Source: a bacterium (lineage in GTDB: Bacteria; UBA10199; 2-02-FULL-44-16; JAAZCA01). From it: 64,000 bases of DNA. The notes under the pieces are model-generated. The model was not told the DNA's origin. It did no database searches and worked only from the letters and a program-made list of their open reading frames with translations. Positions within the stretch are counted from its first letter, which is position 1, and each line of letters begins with the position of its first letter. A program made the translations under genes and the position numbers. The DNA lies in assembly GCA_021810905.1 (NCBI GenBank), contig JAJZQH010000012.1, positions 10,001 through 74,000 of the forward strand, read 5' to 3'. Positions 5,604-20,236 of the stretch are shown here, one piece after another.

Positions 5604-6860
5604 TCAGTTCTTGGCATCGCCGGTTCGCCTCGTAAGTTTTCGCGAGCGGAGATCCAATACGCGTTCGACATCGGATAACGAAACCCCGGAGCGAGCCAGT
5701 GCCGCCATTGCAAAATAGAGCAGATCGCCAGCCTCTTCGCTCACATGCGCGGGATCTTTTGCATCCGCAAGCTCTCCCGCTTCCTCACAGAGTTTCGCGC
5801 GCAGCAGGGCGGGATCCGACAACAGGCGGGCAGTATAGGATCCGGGTGGCGCATCTTTCTTGCGTGCGGCAAGGCGTCTCGCCAGCGCATTTAAGCCGCC
5901 ATCACTGCCCCAGCACGTCCTCGTGTCGTTGTGACAAAACCCGCTGCCGCGCTGATTGACCACAAACCGGAGGCAATCCCTGTCGCAATCCAGATCGATT
6001 CGAATAAGATCCTGCGTCTGACCCGAGCTCTCGCCCTTGCGCCACAGCCCGCGCCTGCGCGAGTGATATACACCGCTCTTCGTTCGCACCGCCTCGCGCA
6101 CGCTCTCCGCGTTCGACCACGCAAGTCCCAGCGCCACGCCATGTTCGTCGCACACGACCGTGGGCCAGAGCCCGTCCGGCCGATCCGAGGTGAGGGGCGC
6201 CGCGATAGCATCCGCCAGATCCATCTTTCCGGAATAGAGCGCCATGCCGATCTGCGCATCCGCACCCATTCGATCTATCTCGCCGATCTCCGCGGCCTCC
6301 GCAACGCCGCCCGCCACGGTTACGCGCGCGTGCCCCGCGGCATCGATCACCCGCCGCACCTCATCGAGGTCGATTCCCTGCATGCGGCCCTCGAGCTCTA
6401 CGAACGTAACGAGAAAACCGCCGACCAGATCGCGAAGTTCCGCGAGGCGTTCGAGCACTGTCTCACTCGTCTTCTTCGTCCAGCCCTCGACGACGATTTC
6501 GCCGTGCACCGCGTCCAACGCAGCGATGACGCGATCGCGCGGAAGACGTGAGAGAAGTTCCGGCTGCGCCGCCGTGCCGATGATGATCTTCCTCGCGCCT
6601 GCATCCAGCCAGCGAAGCGCCGTATCATAATCGCGTATGCCGCCTCCGACCCTACAGTCATATTTTGCCGTCAACCTCTCGATGAGCTCGCGGTTATTCC
6701 CTCTGCCCATCGCCGCATCCAGGTCGATGACGGCGATCTCGCCGGCAACGGAAAACTTCTCGGCAATTGGAAACGGATCTCCAGCATCTATTGCCATCTC
6801 GCGACCGCCTATCAGCTGAACCGCCCTGCCTCCCATGAGATCTATTGAAGGAATCATCAT
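5604..6860 (-). CDS. hisAIE: Trifunctional HisA-HisI-HisE fusion
   Basis: One 418-residue reading frame joins three enzymes of histidine synthesis. Residues 1 to about 228 are HisA, the ProFAR isomerase barrel: IPSIDLMGG with the catalytic Asp, GGGIRD, and AALDAVHG with the second Asp. Residues about 230-318 are HisI, phosphoribosyl-AMP cyclohydrolase: SGVYHSRRRGLWRKGESSG, then DLDCDRD, FCHND and RTCWG supplying three zinc cysteines. Residues about 325-418 are HisE, phosphoribosyl-ATP pyrophosphatase: PPGSYTARLL and EEAGDLLYF. HisI-HisE fusions are common; adding HisA is not. No frameshift is needed. It overlaps hisF by 4 bp (ATGA) and precedes hisD. Confidence 0.95.
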   Translation of the reverse strand: MMIPSIDLMGGRAVQLIGGREMAIDAGDPFPIAEKFSVAGEIAVIDLDAAMGRGNNRELIERLTAKYDCRVGGGIRDYDTALRWLDAGARKIIIGTAAQPELLSRLPRDRVIAALDAVHGEIVVEGWTKKTSETVLERLAELRDLVGGFLVTFVELEGRMQGIDLDEVRRVIDAAGHARVTVAGGVAEAAEIGEIDRMGADAQIGMALYSGKMDLADAIAAPLTSDRPDGLWPTVVCDEHGVALGLAWSNAESVREAVRTKSGVYHSRRRGLWRKGESSGQTQDLIRIDLDCDRDCLRFVVNQRGSGFCHNDTRTCWGSDGGLNALARRLAARKKDAPPGSYTARLLSDPALLRAKLCEEAGELADAKDPAHVSEEAGDLLYFAMAALARSGVSLSDVERVLDLRSRKLTRRTGDAKN

Positions 6861-8241: not shown

Positions 8242-8825
8242 TACAGCACCCCCTTCGTGCTTGCCACGGCATCTCCGACAATCGCAACGGCCTGCCTCAT
8301 TGCCAGCGCCAGCGCCTTGACAGCCGCCTCCGCCTGGTGATGGTCGTTGAATCCGCGAAGCACGTCGACGTGAACTGTCGCGCGCGCCGACATGGCGAGC
8401 GAGGCGATCATGTGAGGTATATTCTCGCATGAAAGCTCGCCTACCTTTTCGCGCATGAGCATGAGGTTGATATCGGCAAAGGGCCTTCCTGACAAATCGA
8501 TGCAGGCCCTGGCAAGCGACTCATCCATCGGAGCAAACGCGAAACCAAAGCGCGCAATACCTCTCCGCTCCCCAAGGGCCTTGTCGATGGCGGTACCCAG
8601 TGCAAGCGCACAATCTTCGGCCGTGTGGTGATCGTCCACCGCCAGATCTCCGCTGCAGGACAACTTGAGATCAAAGCGCGCGTGTCTTGCAAGAGCGGTG
8701 AAGAGGTGATCGAGAAATTCTATGCCGGTAGCGATCTTCGATTCACCGCTTCCATCCAGATCGAGCTCAAGCTCAATCTTCGTCTCAGATGTCTTGCGCG
8801 AAATCGACGCCTTCCTTGAGTTCAT
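8241..8825 (-). CDS. hisB: Imidazoleglycerol-phosphate dehydratase
   Basis: HisB removes water from imidazole glycerol phosphate to give imidazole acetol phosphate. The 194-residue, single-domain form has the two metal-binding signatures of the family, DDHHTAED (about 64-71) and NDHHQAEA (about 161-168), plus the GIEFLDHL start of the fold. It carries no phosphatase domain, unlike the E. coli HisB fusion; here the phosphatase is predicted on hisC. It overlaps the upstream hisC-HAD gene by 4 bp. Confidence 0.97.
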   Translation of the reverse strand: MNSRKASISRKTSETKIELELDLDGSGESKIATGIEFLDHLFTALARHARFDLKLSCSGDLAVDDHHTAEDCALALGTAIDKALGERRGIARFGFAFAPMDESLARACIDLSGRPFADINLMLMREKVGELSCENIPHMIASLAMSARATVHVDVLRGFNDHHQAEAAVKALALAMRQAVAIVGDAVASTKGVL

Positions 8826-10549
8826 GGCAGCACCTCCATAATTTCTGCGATGTCACCCAGCACACGCGCGGCCCCCGCCCTTATGAGGGCGCTGCGCGCT
8901 ATCGACGGATCGTCGGCCGGCGCAAGCACGCCTATCGGGAGCGCCCCGGCAGCGCGCGCCGAGCGGATATCATCAGGCGTGTCTCCGATCATCCATGCCC
9001 GCACCGCGCAGAGCTTCTGTATGGCTGTACGCACGGGAGCAGGGTCAGGTTTGAGAGGTCCGTCATCCATCGTAACCACGGTTCCGAACAGGTCCTCTAT
9101 TCCGTTTTCACTCAGAAATCGCATCGCATCCGATCGCGGCCTGCCGGTGACAATGCCGAGACTGCAGAATGAGGCGATGCGCGCCAGCATTGCGCGATCG
9201 AGCATGAGTCTCTCGGTTGAGCGGAAGCCCGGAACGTCTCCATCCCCTTGGTAGAAGCGCTCGAATCTCCGCGTGACCTCGCCCAGATCAGCGGCTACGC
9301 CGCGACCTTTGATGAGCCTCCATGTGAGCTCCCAGTCGTTGTTTGCATCGCCTCCGGCCTTTGCCTCAGTGATATCATCGAATGAAATATTCACGCCATA
9401 AGTCTCGGCAGTAGCCACGGTGGCGCGCCTGTACGAATCCGTGACGTCTGCGAGCGTGTCGTCCATGTCAAAGAGGATCGCCTCCGGTGCATGCGCATTT
9501 TCAAATGCGCGCAGGAGCCTGGAAAAATCGGCTTCATCTCCCGGCAGCGTGATCCTGAGTTTTCCATCAAGATTTTTGTCTCCGTCGAAAGAGCGCACGG
9601 CTATTCCCTGGCCTGCCAGCGCATCCCTGATCCAGCCGGAGTTCGCAAATTCAGCGAGTATGAAATTGCCCTGCGAAGGAAAACACTTTACCCCATATGA
9701 AGAGAGGAACTCATCCAGTTTTCTGCGCTCGAGCTTCACGCGATCCGTATACGTACGCACGTCGGCATCATCCGCTGCGAGTCGCTCAGAAGCCAGGCTG
9801 AGGGATATTGAGGAGACTGCATAGGGTTGCCCCACGCTGCGCATCCACCCGATAACCTCCTCCGGCCCGGCTGCCCATCCGACACGAAGGCCGGCCATGC
9901 CCCACGCTTTTGAAAAAGTCCGCACGACAAGCGCATTTGGAATATCCAGCGCAACCCGGGTCAGGTCCTCATCCGCGAACTCCCCATACGCCAGATCGAC
10001 GAGCAGGAGCGCGGACGGAGCGGCAGCGGCAATCCTGATGAGATCGTCGGACGTAGCCACGAAACCGGTAGGATTATTCGGGCTGACTATTGCGACGAGC
10101 GCTGTCTTCTCGTTTATCTTCGAGAGCACCTCGTCGGCCGGAAAAGCGCGGTCGAGCCAGGGCACGCCGACGACGTCGCAACCGACGCGAGCGCAGTAGC
10201 GCGAAAGCATCTCAAAGGTCGGGAACGGGATGACGGCCTCGCGGCCGGCGCAGAGGACCGCGCGCACCGCGCGCTCGATCGCATCGTCTGCTCCTGCCGT
10301 GACGATAACGCGCGACGCGTCAATGCCATGCATCTTTGCTATCTTCGCTTCCGTCTCAGCAGCGGAAGGGTATCTGCGAATCGCCTCGCCGTCGATGCGG
10401 GAAAGGCGTTCGAGTATTGTCCGAGGGACTGGTTGTCCCTCGTTGCCGTCCAGCCTTAGATCCACGGGTGCGCCGTGCCTGGGCGGCCGATACGTCGGAC
10501 ATGACAGAGCCGCCGGACTCGGGCTCAATAAAGTTTTTCTCCGCTTCAT
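8822..10549 (-). CDS. hisC: Histidinol-phosphate aminotransferase fused to a HAD phosphatase
   Basis: Residues 1 to about 352 are a fold-type I PLP aminotransferase of the HisC type: LDGNEGQP, SPNNPTG (156-162), DLAYGEF and TFSKAWG with the PLP lysine at about 214. Residues about 355-575 are a HAD hydrolase: DMDDT with the nucleophile Asp 361, TGRPR, KPDP and GDTPDD. Histidine synthesis needs a histidinol-phosphate phosphatase after HisC. No HisN, PHP-type or HisB-N phosphatase is seen here, so the HAD part probably fills that step. That is inference from context. It overlaps hisB by 4 bp and starts 10 nt after hisG. Confidence 0.93.
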   Translation of the reverse strand: MKRRKTLLSPSPAALSCPTYRPPRHGAPVDLRLDGNEGQPVPRTILERLSRIDGEAIRRYPSAAETEAKIAKMHGIDASRVIVTAGADDAIERAVRAVLCAGREAVIPFPTFEMLSRYCARVGCDVVGVPWLDRAFPADEVLSKINEKTALVAIVSPNNPTGFVATSDDLIRIAAAAPSALLLVDLAYGEFADEDLTRVALDIPNALVVRTFSKAWGMAGLRVGWAAGPEEVIGWMRSVGQPYAVSSISLSLASERLAADDADVRTYTDRVKLERRKLDEFLSSYGVKCFPSQGNFILAEFANSGWIRDALAGQGIAVRSFDGDKNLDGKLRITLPGDEADFSRLLRAFENAHAPEAILFDMDDTLADVTDSYRRATVATAETYGVNISFDDITEAKAGGDANNDWELTWRLIKGRGVAADLGEVTRRFERFYQGDGDVPGFRSTERLMLDRAMLARIASFCSLGIVTGRPRSDAMRFLSENGIEDLFGTVVTMDDGPLKPDPAPVRTAIQKLCAVRAWMIGDTPDDIRSARAAGALPIGVLAPADDPSIARSALIRAGAARVLGDIAEIMEVLP

Positions 10550-10559
10550 GCCGCCTCCG

Positions 10560-11429
10560 TCACGGGACTATCTGTGAAAGCTTTGTCACAACAATGTCTG
10601 TTCCGCCGCGCCGCTTCACCTCCGGAACCAATGATGGCAGTTTCTCGCGCGGCACTGCGGCCTTGACCGCGTAGCCGGCCCCGCCGTGCAGCGGCGACAT
10701 GGTCGGCTCACGCATGCAGGGCAGGATTTTTATCACGGACTCCAGCTTGTCGGCGGGCACATTGATCTCCAGCATAACGCGCCCCCGCGCCTCCAGCACC
10801 GAGCGCAGCACCATGGCCAGCCCCTCCATCGCTTCCCGCTTATGCGGATCGCGCATGGCAGCGGGGCTCGCGTAGAGCCGCGTCGATGAGCGCATGAGTT
10901 CGCCGACCTCGAGCAGGTTGTTTGCACGCAGAGTTGCTCCGCTCGATACCAGGTCGACTATGCAGTCTGCGTCTTCAGGAGGAAACACCTCCGTTGCTCC
11001 GTACGAACGGACAAAAGTTGCGTCTATGCCGATCTCTCCTATCCATTTGCGAGTCAGGTTCTCGAATTCAGACGCTATCACGAGCCTTCGCCGAGGCAGG
11101 GCCCCGTCTTCAAGCAGCTCTGCAGAAGCCGCAGCAACGAGTTTCACCGGCTCAAGCCCCGTGTCCAACAGCTCCACGAGATCGACACCCAGCTCGGCAA
11201 CCCAGTCAGCGCCGGCAAAACCCATGTCGCGGGAGCCCAGGGAGAGCATCTCGATGATATTCTGCGGTTTGAGGATCTTTGCTTCGAAATTCGCCATCGA
11301 AAGGACAGGACGATATCCCCGGTTCGAGGTCCTCACCTGAACGCCCGCGTCGGCCAGCAGGCCCATCACTCCGTCGTGCATTCGACCTTTTGGAAGTGCG
11401 ATCTTGACCTGCGATGTCTCTCTGATCAT
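10560..11429 (-). CDS. hisG: ATP phosphoribosyltransferase, long form
   Basis: HisG condenses ATP and PRPP in the first, committed step of histidine synthesis. The 289 residues match the long form, whose C-terminal ACT-like domain (about 215-289) binds histidine for feedback inhibition, so no HisZ is required. Signatures are KIALPKGRM near the start, GFAGADWVAELG, and the PRPP-binding DCIVDLVSSGATLRANNL. ATG 11429 is chosen because AGGAGG lies nine bases upstream; the frame is open to 11489 but crosses the terminator hairpin. It is the first structural gene of the operon. Confidence 0.96.
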   Translation of the reverse strand: MIRETSQVKIALPKGRMHDGVMGLLADAGVQVRTSNRGYRPVLSMANFEAKILKPQNIIEMLSLGSRDMGFAGADWVAELGVDLVELLDTGLEPVKLVAAASAELLEDGALPRRRLVIASEFENLTRKWIGEIGIDATFVRSYGATEVFPPEDADCIVDLVSSGATLRANNLLEVGELMRSSTRLYASPAAMRDPHKREAMEGLAMVLRSVLEARGRVMLEINVPADKLESVIKILPCMREPTMSPLHGGAGYAVKAAVPREKLPSLVPEVKRRGGTDIVVTKLSQIVP

Positions 11430-11469: not shown

Positions 11470-11500
11470 AAAAAAAGCGACGCCGGCATGGCCGGCGTCG
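11470..11500 (-). terminator. Terminator hairpin of the his attenuator
   Basis: On the minus strand a perfect 10-bp stem (CGACGCCGGC, 3-nt loop, GCCGGCGTCG) is followed by C and seven T. It lies about 40 nt upstream of the hisG start and 31 nt downstream of the leader-peptide stop codon. A rival pairing can form: GGCUGGC at 11534-11540, around the last leader codons, can pair with GCCGGCC at 11490-11496 (seven pairs, one G-U) and would break this stem. That arrangement is the classic attenuator. Confidence 0.75.
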
Positions 11501-11530
11501 TGTGGAAATCAATTCAACAAAGGACCACCC

Positions 11531-11593
11531 TCAGCCAGCCCGCAACGAAAAGAGGTGGTAATGGTGGCAACCTGTGCAAACGACCTTCTTCAT
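11531..11593 (-). CDS. hisL: his operon leader peptide
   Basis: A 20-codon frame starts at ATG 11593 and ends at TGA 11531-11533. It encodes MKKVVCTGC, then His-His-Tyr-His, then LFSLRAG. Three His codons in four positions, just ahead of a terminator hairpin and hisG, are what a histidine attenuator needs: ribosomes stalled at the His codons would free the antiterminator. A further alternative stem could pair ACCACC at 11554-11559 with GGTGGT at 11524-11529. The Shine-Dalgarno region is weak (GGAAA about 5-9 bases upstream). The Cys-x-x-Cys before the His codons is unexplained. Confidence 0.75.
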   Translation of the reverse strand: MKKVVCTGCHHYHLFSLRAG

Positions 11594-11630: not shown

Positions 11631-11827
11631 GGAATTCCGCGGCCATGTCGCGGCAAAAAAAACAGGTAAACAATGCTCTCGGGATTTGGCGCAGCGGTTG
11701 GGCATGTCTCCCGTCATCCGGCACGAAGAAAGCTGTGGTGAGTGGAAAACGGTAAAATTGCAGCGGTTGTGAGAAATGACGAGGGAAATGCCATTCACCC
11801 TGCGGGTGAATGGGGGTTGCAAAGGAC

Positions 11828-11912
11828 GCGTTACCCACAGATCCTTCATCATCCGTCCGCCCTGCTACGCGGGAGGCTCGCGGCCGGACGACGAAGGATC
11901 TGTGGATAACGC
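11828..11912. repeat. Long imperfect inverted repeat at the 3' end of the HNH gene
   Basis: Two 20-bp arms, GCGTTACCCACAGATCCTTC (11828-11847) and GAAGGATCTGTGGATAACGC (11893-11912), pair with one mismatch. Inner bases also pair partly (CGTCCG with CGGACG). The element overlaps the stop codon of the HNH gene. It resembles dispersed palindromic repeats of the REP/MITE kind; no second copy is seen in this window. It has no T-run, so it is not a typical terminator. Confidence 0.6.
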
Positions 11913-12967
11913 TTCTGCTCTCCATACTCACTCCTCATCGTCAACTGATTATGCGCATGACAGAGGAGACGGATATTTTGCGGATCTTTCGAGCTCCCGC
12001 CTTTGGCAAACGGCTGCACATGATCGAATTCCAGAAAGCTTTGCGTTTCGCATCGCTTGCTGTCTGCGCTCACGTACTGGCACCTGCCCTGATCCCGCTG
12101 CCAGACAAGGTCTTTGACATGCTGCGGGATGTACCGCGTGTGAGCATCCCCGGACCTCTGGGGCCGCTGGCTCGGAGCGCTTTTTCTCGCCTTACGCTCG
12201 CCCCTCTTCTCCGGATCCTTCTTCTCAAGGAACGCATCGAGTGCCTCGTCGATGATCTCCTCCAGCCTGGCAGCAGGGTACTTGTGCCGAAGGAGCGCCT
12301 TCGCCCGCTCGATCTTGCTTCGGAGCTCCTCGCTTCCGGTGAACTGAAACTTGATCCTCTGCTCTGAGAGGGGCGAGATAGAATCCCTTCTCGCCGGCGT
12401 GATTGGAGGCGCAATCGCTGCACTACGTTCCTCGCATGCTGCTGAAACAGAAACCTCGACCCTGTCGGATGATGACTGCGATGGATCTGTGCCTGCTCCA
12501 CTCCCGCAACTCGCTCTGGAGCGAGTTAGTTCAGGGAGTGCCCGTATCATGTCCGGGACATCCGGCTTAGGCGCATACGCTGCTTTCATCCTCTCCACTT
12601 CGAGCTTTGACATGTGCACGGACTTCATCAGGAGTTCAGCATGATTCTCCTCGGTGAGAATCGGGGAGAGGATCGTGACCGTGGTCAGGTTGATCCTGCC
12701 CTCTGAGATGAGGGGAAGGATAACGGGAAAGCGCCTTGCCGCCCTGGCCGCGTGGATGCGTTTGTATGCGGCGTCTTCCGATAAGTGCAGCTCCTGCACG
12801 ACAAAGGTGAAGAGGGAGGAGAAGCCGAGCGTGGCATAGAGTCTTCTTTCATCCATCTCGGCGAGCAGGGACAAGAGCTCTGCGAGGGATCGGCATTCCT
12901 GGGAGATGAGCTGTTTTATCTCTCCAACCAGTTGTTCATCACTCAAGCTTGATGGATTCTTTCGCAT
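11849..12967 (-). CDS. HNH endonuclease family protein
   Basis: The 372-residue protein ends in an HNH nuclease domain (about 285-360): CQYV, then a paired Cys, LEFDHVQPFAKGGSS with the catalytic His, and NIRLLCHAHNQ. The first 140 residues are helical (DEQLVGEIKQLI, then YKRIHAARAARRFP) and resemble DUF222-type partners found with HNH domains. Residues about 150-205 are Ser/Ala/Pro-rich and probably disordered. The start ATG has AAGGAGG seven bases upstream. Such solitary HNH proteins occur in phages, mobile elements and as chromosomal genes; its substrate is unknown. Confidence 0.85.
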   Translation of the reverse strand: MRKNPSSLSDEQLVGEIKQLISQECRSLAELLSLLAEMDERRLYATLGFSSLFTFVVQELHLSEDAAYKRIHAARAARRFPVILPLISEGRINLTTVTILSPILTEENHAELLMKSVHMSKLEVERMKAAYAPKPDVPDMIRALPELTRSRASCGSGAGTDPSQSSSDRVEVSVSAACEERSAAIAPPITPARRDSISPLSEQRIKFQFTGSEELRSKIERAKALLRHKYPAARLEEIIDEALDAFLEKKDPEKRGERKARKSAPSQRPQRSGDAHTRYIPQHVKDLVWQRDQGRCQYVSADSKRCETQSFLEFDHVQPFAKGGSSKDPQNIRLLCHAHNQLTMRSEYGEQKRYPQILRRPAASLPRSRADG

Positions 12968-13588: not shown

Positions 13589-13616
13589 AAAAGTGTGGGA
13601 AATAAAGGAGGAGATT

Positions 13617-14894
13617 ATGGGCCTTGAGACGACGTTGAATTTTTCACCGTGTTCAGTCTTCGCATCCGACGGGCTGTTCGAGTCTGCCGTGAATGCCGAG
13701 GCGGAAGCAGATGGATCGAACCGCTGCGATGGAGATCAGACTTTCGATGCAGAAGGAGACGCCCCGGCATCAAGCCCTTGCGCTGAGACAACTTCCTCAT
13801 ACTGTTCCGGCAGCGGTGATGCCGCTCTGGAAAAGATGTCGCTGCGCCCGTCCGGCAACGTGCAGCGTTTTGCGACGAATGCCGCTGTCGCGGGCGATGG
13901 CGAACTCTCCGCAGGGAAGACTGAAAACGCCGACGATTTCGGACTCGGAGAACTCGATATCGCCTTCGTGGAAGAGCAGATGCGGCCGGGAAATTCTTCG
14001 ATTGCTGGCTTCCTCGGCCGGGATGAATCGCTCCTCGATGTCCTCCGAACGGACGCTGCGACGCTCAGAGACTACGGCGTTACGCATGAGGAGGTCGCGG
14101 AGCTTCTGAGCCAGATCGTCTCCGGAATGACTGAGGATTATCAAGTCCAAGTCGGCGATGACGAATTCGATGTTCGAGTGACCGTATATAGGGGTTCTCA
14201 AGAATGCCCTTTCTTTAAGCATGGCGATGACGGCAAGCGCGTTCACCTGCAGCCAATCGACATGAGGCTCGATATAGGACATCGCGGTAGTAAGGATTAC
14301 ACGGTCACGAATGTGCGCACTGGACAATCCCTGAACTTCGGCGGGCTGCTCATCCATCTCATCCGCGTCCACAAGTTTTTTGAGGGGAAGGGGACCAGCT
14401 ATCGCCTCCCGCCCGAGGACGTGATCAGATTCTTCGGCATGGAGAGGGAAGCGAGGTCCGCAACGGTGATCGAGACTCCTTCCTATCGCTACGAGAATTA
14501 TGCCATGCGTATCTTCGGTGTGCTGTGGCAAATCAAATCTCTTTATTCTGGAAATATCGACATCGACTCGTTCACAGGGGAGGAGGGCCTGCGCGCATTT
14601 TCCGAGATCGTCGACCAGGTCGCGTTTGTCGCGCCCGCGATCAGGGATAGCTGGAAGCAGCGTGCAGCCGAAATCGTCGATAACCTCGGGACCAAAGACG
14701 AGTCCTCGATTCTCGATATCCTCCTCGGGACCAAAAACGTGTCCTCCAGGACGACTTGGGCAGCAAAGCGCGCGGAGCTGGATGAGTTAGCTTCCGAGAT
14801 CGAGGCGGAGGTGATCCGATCCACGGGATTCGTTCCCCCTCAATATCATTGCAAAGCTACAGCGGCCAAGCTTCCGCCAAATTTGGGAAGATGA
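13617..14894 (+). CDS. Unknown protein, tandem paralogue 1 (C-terminally shortened)
   Basis: I do not recognise this family. The 425-residue protein starts at ATG 13617 behind AAAGGAGGAGATT. It has no Sec signal. Residues 1-100 are rich in Ser, Ala, Asp and Cys and probably disordered; the rest looks globular and acidic. The first about 390 bases are almost identical to the next gene (14959), as is a block encoding LLIHLIRVHKFFEGKGTSYR (about 250-270). The C-terminus stops about 100 residues before that of its paralogue, and sequence related to the missing part persists downstream. It carries the shared promoter motif. Confidence 0.75.
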   Translation: MGLETTLNFSPCSVFASDGLFESAVNAEAEADGSNRCDGDQTFDAEGDAPASSPCAETTSSYCSGSGDAALEKMSLRPSGNVQRFATNAAVAGDGELSAGKTENADDFGLGELDIAFVEEQMRPGNSSIAGFLGRDESLLDVLRTDAATLRDYGVTHEEVAELLSQIVSGMTEDYQVQVGDDEFDVRVTVYRGSQECPFFKHGDDGKRVHLQPIDMRLDIGHRGSKDYTVTNVRTGQSLNFGGLLIHLIRVHKFFEGKGTSYRLPPEDVIRFFGMEREARSATVIETPSYRYENYAMRIFGVLWQIKSLYSGNIDIDSFTGEEGLRAFSEIVDQVAFVAPAIRDSWKQRAAEIVDNLGTKDESSILDILLGTKNVSSRTTWAAKRAELDELASEIEAEVIRSTGFVPPQYHCKATAAKLPPNLGR

Positions 14895-14904
14895 CGAGAG
14901 CAGA

Positions 14905-14935
14905 CCGGTTAGGGAGCAGCCCCTTTTATAGAGAA
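14905..14935 (+). pseudogene. Remnant of the lost 3' end of paralogue 1
   Basis: After the stop at 14894, a 31-base stretch (CCGGTTAGGGAGCAGCCCC and following bases) matches 16269-16299, inside the second paralogue, at 27 of 31 positions. The region between the genes therefore derives from coding sequence lost from the first copy by deletion. Confidence 0.6.
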
Positions 14936-14958
14936 GTGTGTAAATAAAGGAGAAGATT

Positions 14959-16545
14959 GTGGGCCTTGAGACGACGTTGAATTTTTCACCGTGTTCAGTC
15001 TTCGCATCCGACGGGCTGTTCGAGTCTGCCGTGAATGCCGAGGCGGAAGCGGATGGATCGAACCGCTGCGATGGAGATCGGACTTTCGATGCAGAAGGAG
15101 ACGCCCCGGCATCAAGCCCTTGCGCTGAGACAACTTCCTCATACTGTTCCGGCAGCGGTGATGCCGCTCTGGAAAAGATGTCGCTACGCCCGCCCGGCAA
15201 CGTGCAGCGTTTTGCGACGAATGCCGCTGTCGCGGGCGACGGAAAACTCTCCGCAGGGAAGACTGAAAACGCTGACGATTTCGGACTCGGAGAACTCGAT
15301 ATCGCCTTCGTGGAAGAACAGATGCGACCTTTCATCGGACTTTCGAGAGCTGGCTTCCTCGGTCGGGACGAATCGCTCCTCGACATCCTGCGCGCGGACG
15401 CCGAGACACTCAGACGGTACGGCATCACGCATGAGGAGATTGCTGAGCTCCTGAGTCAGGTCGCCGCCTATTCCCGTAATACTGACCATTACCAAGTCAA
15501 AGTCGGTGATGAACGATTCGATGTTGATTTGAACATGTACTTGGGCTCTCAAGAATGTCCCTTCTTTAAGCATAGCGATGATGGCAAATACTTTCACCCT
15601 CATCCCATGGACTGGGACATCGACATAAGACACCGTGCCGGTTGCGATTACAAGGTCAGAAATGTGCGCACCGGACAATCTCTGGAGTTCGGCGGTCTGC
15701 TCATCCATCTCATCCGCGTCCACAAGTTTTTTGAGGGGAAGGGGACCAGCTATCGCCTCCCGCCGGAGGACGTGATCAGATTCTTCGGCATGGAGAGGGG
15801 GGTGAGGTCCGCCACATTGATCGAGACGCCTTCCTATCTCTACGATTATTATGGGGTCGGCGTCTTCCTTGTGCTCGGGAATTTTCTACGTCTTTATGAT
15901 GAAAACAGGGACTCTGGCAGCTTCACGGGGGAGGAGGGCCTCCGAGCCTTCTCCGCAGCCATCGATCGGATCGCGTTTGTCGCGCCCGAAATCAGGGAAG
16001 ATTGGAAACAGCGTGCAGCCGAAATCGTCGATAACCTCGGACCGAAAGATGAATCCTTAAAGGCGAGTTGGGCAGCAAAGCGCGCGGAGCTGGATGCGTT
16101 CTCTTCCGCGATCGAAGCGAAGGTGATCCGATCCGCGGGATTCGTTCCCCTTCGATATTGGTTCGATGGTACGGGTGCCTTGTTTTCGGAAGACGTCGAA
16201 AAGTTCAGGACGGCAAAGTTGCTGAGGGCGTTTGCCGATAAGGTTGGAGAGTTGATGAAGGAAAAAAGCCGGTTCGGGAGCAGCCCCGATTACAGAGAAT
16301 GGTATTCGTTGCTCAATTGGGCTGACAAACAGACCTCCTCCGGAAACCTCTATGACTATCCGTTCCCCGCGGAAATCTATCAGCGCATCCGTGGGACGAT
16401 CGAGCATATGAATGTGGTGATGATAGGAAGCGATTCGTACGAGGATGCCCGCTGGCAGCTGGATGCCCTTCTTGAACAACTGCGAAACCAGGCGGAGGCA
16501 GAACTGTCCGCCGCGCGCCAAGGACTTTCCATGAAAATGGAATAG
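14959..16545 (+). CDS. Unknown protein, tandem paralogue 2 (full length)
   Basis: The family is unknown to me. Start is GTG 14959 after AAAGGAGAAGATT, aligning exactly with the ATG of the first copy. The 528-residue product shares the disordered Ser/Asp/Cys-rich N-terminal 100 residues and the globular core with the preceding gene, then continues for about 100 residues (EDVEKFRTAKLLRAFADKVG onward) into a helical C-terminal region. No signal peptide or membrane segment is visible. Identity between copies is patchy: near-perfect blocks alternate with diverged ones, as expected from gene conversion. No promoter motif is seen between the copies, so the two are probably co-transcribed. Confidence 0.78.
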   Translation: MGLETTLNFSPCSVFASDGLFESAVNAEAEADGSNRCDGDRTFDAEGDAPASSPCAETTSSYCSGSGDAALEKMSLRPPGNVQRFATNAAVAGDGKLSAGKTENADDFGLGELDIAFVEEQMRPFIGLSRAGFLGRDESLLDILRADAETLRRYGITHEEIAELLSQVAAYSRNTDHYQVKVGDERFDVDLNMYLGSQECPFFKHSDDGKYFHPHPMDWDIDIRHRAGCDYKVRNVRTGQSLEFGGLLIHLIRVHKFFEGKGTSYRLPPEDVIRFFGMERGVRSATLIETPSYLYDYYGVGVFLVLGNFLRLYDENRDSGSFTGEEGLRAFSAAIDRIAFVAPEIREDWKQRAAEIVDNLGPKDESLKASWAAKRAELDAFSSAIEAKVIRSAGFVPLRYWFDGTGALFSEDVEKFRTAKLLRAFADKVGELMKEKSRFGSSPDYREWYSLLNWADKQTSSGNLYDYPFPAEIYQRIRGTIEHMNVVMIGSDSYEDARWQLDALLEQLRNQAEAELSAARQGLSMKME

Positions 16546-20051: not shown

Positions 20052-20236
20052 AATCCCCCCGCTCAGGCCGTGTGGCGTCCCATTTTGAACCTGACTCTGT
20101 CAGGTGGGTGATCGTGTTGCCGGTTCAGGCTTCCCTACCTCTAGGCAGGGCATGCACACCTCGGCAAGGTACAATCCCCAAAATGGTCGTGACGGTTCTA
20201 AAATGCTACAGCCAAGCACGCACCCAGTAGGGGGAA
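20052..20236 (-). ncRNA. ssrS: 6S RNA
   Basis: 6S RNA mimics an open promoter and traps sigma-70 RNA polymerase. The minus strand reads GGTGTGCATGCCCTGCC, then GGGAAGCCTGAACCGGCAAC, then TCACCCACCTGAC, closely following the E. coli 6S core (GAAGCCTxAAxxxGCxACxAC). The 5' part (CCCCC near 20230-20234, CATTTT) can pair with the 3' part (AAAATG, GCCACAC, GGGGGG near 20055-20060) as the closing stem, giving about 185 nt. It lies between zapA and fau, the conserved position. The exact ends are estimates. Confidence 0.9.

Follow-up and report, generated by a model that had tools for sequence, protein, structure and literature searches.

A histidine attenuator with a probably leaderless leader peptide upstream of long-form hisG, and its relatives across bacterial phyla

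The window analysed here is a 64 kb stretch of bacterial DNA whose minus strand carries a complete his operon, preceded by a short reading frame with His codons and by a hairpin. Do these elements form an attenuator, and if so, how does its leader start and where else does the type occur? The original prediction described a 20-residue leader peptide with His-His-Tyr-His in front of a perfect terminator and hisG, and all its coordinates were confirmed on the minus strand (Table 1). On sequence evidence, the leader and its two hairpins very probably switch the operon on when histidine is short.

Table 1. Features of the his leader region and operon in the window
Feature	Positions	Strand	Remarks
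Leader peptide ORF MKKVVCTGCHHYHLFSLRAG	11593-11531	minus	ATG 11593-11591, TGA 11533-11531; 20 residues
Regulatory codons CAC CAT TAC CAC (His His Tyr His)	11566-11555	minus	His codons at the same place in relatives
Antiterminator 5' strand GGCUGGC (DNA GGCTGGC)	11540-11534	minus	Overlaps last leader codons; partner 11496-11490
Antiterminator extension GUGG	11528-11525	minus	Partner CCAC 11505-11502; from duplex and parked-ribosome folds
GGUGGU	11529-11524	minus	6 pairs possible with ACCACC 11559-11554 (His-codon region); hairpin without translation
Intrinsic terminator	11500-11470	minus	Perfect 10-bp stem CGACGCCGGC/GCCGGCGTCG (11500-11478), loop CAT, then C and T7 (11476-11470); paired changes among relatives
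Post-terminator segment complementary to terminator loop and 3' arm	11468-11453	minus	Duplex energy compared with shuffles; 11468-11462 alternatively pairs with 11440-11434, beside the hisG Shine-Dalgarno
hisG Shine-Dalgarno AGGAGG	11444-11439	minus	
hisG, long form with HisG_C	11429-10560	minus	ATG at 11429
-35 element TTGACA (perfect)	11630-11625	minus	37 nt before leader ATG
Candidate -10 CATGGA, TGG in front	11606-11601	minus	Weak, 2 of 6; family position, poor sequence match
Remaining his operon: hisC::HAD, hisB (IGPD), hisH, hisF, hisA::hisIE, hisD	10549-4315	minus	

Two genes of the operon are fusions, hisC with a HAD phosphatase (8822-10549) and hisA with hisIE (5604-6860); the histidinol-phosphatase step may fall to the HAD domain, HisB here having only the IGPD part. 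Upstream on the same strand lies an HNH-nuclease-like ORF (11849-12967), with the leader's -35 element between the two. A near-palindromic 91-bp element (11825-11915), where the HNH ORF ends, matches itself on the opposite strand and has copies on contigs C19 (91%) and C4 (73%). Elsewhere in the window are a tandem pair of ORFs (13593-16545; 433 and 528 aa) whose N-terminal parts are almost identical, apparently through a recent duplication, and a 6S RNA on the minus strand (20052-20236, 89 bits). The sequence CAYCAYTAYCAY is present a single time in the 64 kb, against an expectation of 0.07.

The proposed switch and its predicted folds

The leader has three His residues in total (His10, His11 and His13). 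As first read, GGCUGGC pairs with GCCGGCC in the terminator's 5' arm over exactly seven pairs, one of them G-U, and the six pairs between the His-codon region and GGUGGU are exact too. We consider it highly probable that the his operon is under ribosome-mediated transcription attenuation, with transcription starting at the leader AUG or beside it and ribosomes stalling at His codons. RNA polymerase would start at or beside the AUG, and a ribosome would load on this 5' AUG without a Shine-Dalgarno sequence. When charged tRNA-His is short, the ribosome would stall at His10, His11 or His13, leaving GGCUGGC to pair with the terminator's 5' arm, together with GUGG:CCAC; with this antiterminator in place the terminator would be blocked and hisG through hisD transcribed. 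When histidine is plentiful, the ribosome would reach the UGA and cover GGCUGGC, and the terminator would form. With no translation at all, the His-codon region would pair with region 2, favouring termination.

Predicted folds with a parked ribosome switch as the original prediction had proposed. Whichever of the three His codons occupies the A site, nascent RNA reaching to the terminator loop is predicted to form the antiterminator plus GUGG:CCAC (-18.9 kcal/mol), an additional pairing that the original prediction missed. A ribosome on the stop codon covers region 2 and makes the antiterminator impossible; the nascent RNA is then left with a single hairpin of -2 kcal/mol, and the terminator is predicted to form. 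In unstalled RNA from the AUG, the 1:2 hairpin forms first (-18.6 kcal/mol). In the energy comparison of the two folds, which had been suggested as a check, stalled nascent RNA takes the antiterminator, but the complete RNA at equilibrium prefers the terminator even after stalling (-30.3 vs -18.9 kcal/mol), and antitermination must therefore be kinetic. Likewise, because the minimum free energy fold of naked nascent RNA from the AUG to the terminator loop is the antiterminator (-27.2 kcal/mol), termination without translation would depend on the earlier 1:2 hairpin persisting. For this leader we infer both stalling and a histidine response.

Conservation among relatives and a covariance model

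The window's genus holds no other genome, and within its family (four genomes) and order (nine genomes) a HisG match was found only in the window's genome and in G003, at a locus (L003) whose HisG is 72% identical to the window's. The L003 leader, MKKARDNHYHMTSS, has MKK...HYH in common with that of the window; its hairpin, GACGCCGGCC/GGCCGGCGTC, keeps the core, with an eroded U-tract in which GTCGTTT replaces the U-run. Adding 80 further HisG relatives from public genomes, we surveyed 81 HisG loci with at least 150 nt upstream (1 of 82 was left out). An ORF of 7-45 aa with at least three His in five residues was found upstream of 39 of the 81 hisG genes, compared with 0.7 per 81 in dinucleotide shuffles; the same rule on the reverse complement gave 8 of 81, which is above shuffles, codon repeats and hairpins not being strand-neutral. 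By this rule no His leader was found at the remaining 42 of the 81 loci, a point against the attenuator reading. Three leaders recognized by eye (L003, L012 and L074) brought the working set to 42, in which the terminator begins 19-53 nt past the leader stop and the stem is mostly of the ACGCCGGCC type. On this sequence evidence, the window belongs to a widespread kind of attenuator that precedes long-form hisG and is found in MAGs assigned to eight phyla (Planctomycetota, Myxococcota, Spirochaetota, Acidobacteriota, Armatimonadota, Gemmatimonadota, Bacteroidota and Pseudomonadota; some of these MAG labels are possibly wrong).

Most of these leaders have four to eight His residues, while L004 has three, like the window, and L003 two. 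The His run that had been called unusually compact is thus indeed short, but it is only the low end of a range. The Cys-x-x-Cys that had been singled out as a special feature is absent from L003 and the other leaders inspected; we rejected it as functional, and it looks incidental.

A possible objection is that the attenuator is decaying, its regulation weak or lost: few leaders have as small a number of His codons as those of the window and L003, and L003 has lost its U-tract. We think decay quite unlikely, given that the window retains a perfect stem, T7, the antiterminator and the -35 element, and that L003, at its level of HisG divergence, retains MKK and HYH.

By itself, the window's antiterminator duplex surpasses shuffles only modestly (-21.0 vs -17.0 kcal/mol; 39 of 300 shuffles as good; z = -1.3); the case for the antiterminator is strong because of the relatives. 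Across the 42 leaders the duplex energy has a mean z of -1.87 against shuffles, with 23 leaders below -1.65, although shuffle counts for these folds are not probabilities, since the sequences are related. In an alignment (A1) of 33 of the 42 leaders (excluding L012, L033, L063 and six from Spirochaetota), 72.5% of antiterminator cells are paired, compared with 28-50% in slid versions, and two-sided changes occur at 7 of 11 pairs; for the terminator the values are 92.4% and 6 of 10 pairs. Covariation, another suggested check, is present in both hairpins, and a check of the relatives for loss of the His codons or of the competing pairings, which had been named as the finding that would speak against the reading, did not refute it. 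Sequence and comparison show the parts, a pair of folds that exclude each other and the paired changes in both; the window has, before its his genes, a short ORF with His codons, an intrinsic terminator and, by prediction and comparison, an antiterminator that excludes it.

The hairpin might instead be a mere terminator of the HNH gene, which does lie upstream on the same strand, with the short ORF there by chance. This we regard as very improbable: a perfect -35 element separates the HNH gene from the leader, and the His codons, the antiterminator and the spacing are kept in relatives.

A covariance model (R1) gave an independent test of the attenuator. It was trained on 28 distant hisG leaders (the 33 minus the window, L003, L066, L073 and L077), in segments cut so that most or all His codons were excluded. 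R1 matched the window exactly at the leader with 37.0 bits (E 7.5e-9 in 64 kb), the next match there having 14.4 bits, and it matched L003 with 35.9 bits; none of 24 loci from the window's class matched at E 0.1 or better. A scan of 248 genomes of the class of L017 found matches in 42, and we inspected 29 loci, two of which (L135 and L137) were training leaders. The 27 held-out loci comprise 13 with a His-rich leader, one (L143) with a Phe-rich leader before pheA, and 13 with none, all of the latter below 33 bits except L145. Among the best 15 loci inspected (L135-L149, the two training leaders included), 14 have a His- or Phe-rich leader, and the window's score lies within this range. Four other R1 matches (L112, L113, L114 and L133), which on inspection looked like chance or simple GC hairpins, were excluded from the leader count.

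Rfam has no match to the leaders, in the window or in 20 leader loci: His_leader did not reach its gathering score in any of them and was not among the four weak matches, and a candidate sroD at 18.4 bits was dismissed as far under its gathering score of 50. Control by a T-box or riboswitch would have precedent, His T-boxes being used by other bacteria according to the part of PMC9413887 consulted, but is hardly conceivable here: at gathering score Rfam finds neither a T-box nor a riboswitch in the window, and below threshold only a PreQ1 match of 12.3 bits on the other strand.

Leader start and pairing beyond the terminator

How does translation of the leader begin? When the in-frame ATG or GTG that most closely precedes the His cluster is taken as the leader start, TTGAC lies 34-41 nt upstream in 33 of the 42 leaders, compared with 0.8% of shuffles; the spacing peaks at 37 nt (15 loci), which is also the spacing in the window. 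TTGAC is at the expected place in 10 of the 13 held-out His leaders as well. A good Shine-Dalgarno sequence is missing throughout: none of the 42 leaders is below -5 kcal/mol, and the mean is -1.3 (shuffles -1.8), whereas hisG Shine-Dalgarno energies average -7.0 kcal/mol. Most of the TTGAC leaders also have a -10-like hexamer whose end lies 6-10 nt upstream of the start codon, which would place the transcription start at the AUG or beside it; these hexamers were chosen as best fits, and the statistics use only the fixed-rule TTGAC count. Because of the -35 position and the lack of a good Shine-Dalgarno sequence, the leader ORF is probably leaderless, translated from the first RNA base. The promoter spacing comes from comparison, and the start site is what we infer from it. 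Neither this probable start nor the pairing beyond the terminator had been noticed in the original prediction.

The same attenuator could, on the other hand, have a leader with an ordinary 5' UTR and Shine-Dalgarno sequence, as in E. coli hisL. The -10 in the window is weak and the -35 element alone does not fix the start; a consensus promoter scan of the window found no promoter, and GGAA stands 6 nt before the leader ATG. Set against the leader energies and the spacing peak, this arrangement appears unlikely to us, and we retain the leaderless start.

Pairing beyond the terminator was computed for 41 of the 42 leaders (L063 excluded). The segment after the terminator and before hisG pairs with the loop and 3' arm of the terminator better than shuffles do (mean z -1.76; 18 below -1.65), and own partners beat those of other genomes (median rank 6 of 40), which argues that the terminator loop is matched specifically. 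The window's own pairing has -25.5 vs -19.9 kcal/mol shuffled, with 5 of 200 shuffles as good. Seven further leaders were excluded for want of a usable start; in the remaining 34, the hisG Shine-Dalgarno is predicted to open by an average of 1.1 kcal/mol when the antiterminator forms, vs -0.05 in shuffles (Wilcoxon p 0.005, kinship ignored), and to be more closed without the antiterminator (5.9 vs 4.4; p 0.012, kinship ignored). The segment is perhaps a second, translational layer in part of the range, but the window's own fold does not bear it out: there the predicted opening cost is 7.4 vs 7.6 kcal/mol (-0.2), no difference. For the complete his mRNA of E. coli and S. typhimurium, a review notes that translational control has not been reported, at least in the part consulted (PMC3896937).

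Origin, other target genes and known systems

Where did the window's attenuator come from? A HisG tree of 104 rows sets the 22 rows from the window's class (one of them, L105, on a very long branch), which require one change, apart by a branch with 98* from the window and L003. These two pair together (98*) among the HisG of other phyla, many of them with leaders, L004 being nearest. Of the 24 class loci, L094 alone has an upstream ORF (at -362) with at least three His in five residues, and R1 does not match this locus at E 1. The simplest reading is that the his operon and its attenuator were acquired together, since the HisG of the window and L003 group with those of other phyla and apart from their own class.

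The R1 scan of the window's phylum matched 6 of 46 genomes, and two of these matches precede a different gene. In G023 (L108:1461-2933; 59 bits) the His leader MKRVVYHHVHHHPSERAR and a terminator stand before an ORF of 434 aa, and in G004 (L111:1421-3093 / L117:865-2571) the His leader MQNRLHHHAHHIP and a terminator stand before one of 568 aa, 33% identical to the first; neither genome has a HisG match. To judge from their sequences, the two products look like serine hydrolases: both keep an RSFGG motif, and the longer has a weak Pfam Esterase match. Strong relatives of the hydrolase occur in these 2 of the 46 genomes of the phylum, with weak partial matches in four more. A predicted structure of the L108 product (mean pLDDT 41, from a two-row alignment) was not used.

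In a Phycisphaerales genome, the leader MNMLLRAFCYYFNRFTNAVGPAAV (L131, minus strand, about 1680-1500) follows TTGACT-N17-GATACT and precedes a gene that, by its sequence, we take to be pheA. A Phe-codon leader likewise precedes the pheA-like gene at L143, also on the minus strand, with the same promoter spacing and a terminator; both genomes belong to the class of L017.

We tentatively propose, while thinking it rather less probable than its alternative, that a class of leaderless amino-acid attenuators crosses phyla with the his operon and has been recruited to a serine-hydrolase-like gene in genomes with no HisG match and, with Phe codons, to pheA in Phycisphaerae; in part of this class a second layer would operate, in which formation of the antiterminator is required before the post-terminator segment pairs with the loop and 3' arm of the terminator and so opens the hisG ribosome site. 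If this is right, his attenuation reaches well beyond the groups in the cited descriptions (Proteobacteria and some Firmicutes in the parts consulted), the leader ribosome must start on a bare 5' AUG, and the timing of attenuation (ribosome loading vs polymerase) could be tested in its shortest form. R1 would then be a model for finding such switches in unannotated genomes, and an unknown hydrolase would be part of a histidine response where his genes were not found.

We found no his attenuators of the present type and no leaderless his leader in the literature searched, which did not extend to most subscription journals. The E. coli hisL attenuator, the Rfam family His_leader (RF00514; PMC9413887, in part), is alike in having a leader with His codons, a terminator and a competing antiterminator upstream of hisG, but R1 does not match the E. 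coli leader and Rfam does not match the present ones; the E. coli leader has seven consecutive His (PMC3896937, in part), compared with three His in the window. The leaders of Firmicutes hisZ/hisS and his genes share the His-codon leader, terminator and antiterminator in the portions of PMC2965389 and PMC9413887 consulted, but belong to another phylum and partly to other genes, and are likened here by description only. For the probable leaderless start, a published counterpart is trpL of Sinorhizobium meliloti, whose transcript begins with the ATG of the leader peptide and is subject to ribosome-mediated attenuation; it differs in its amino acid (tryptophan), its gene (trpE(G)), its group (Alphaproteobacteria) and its leader of 14 aa (PMC7298713, in part). 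Beside these systems, the window holds a real his attenuator whose mechanism is known in kind; what is new is the probably leaderless, cross-phylum design and the additional target genes.
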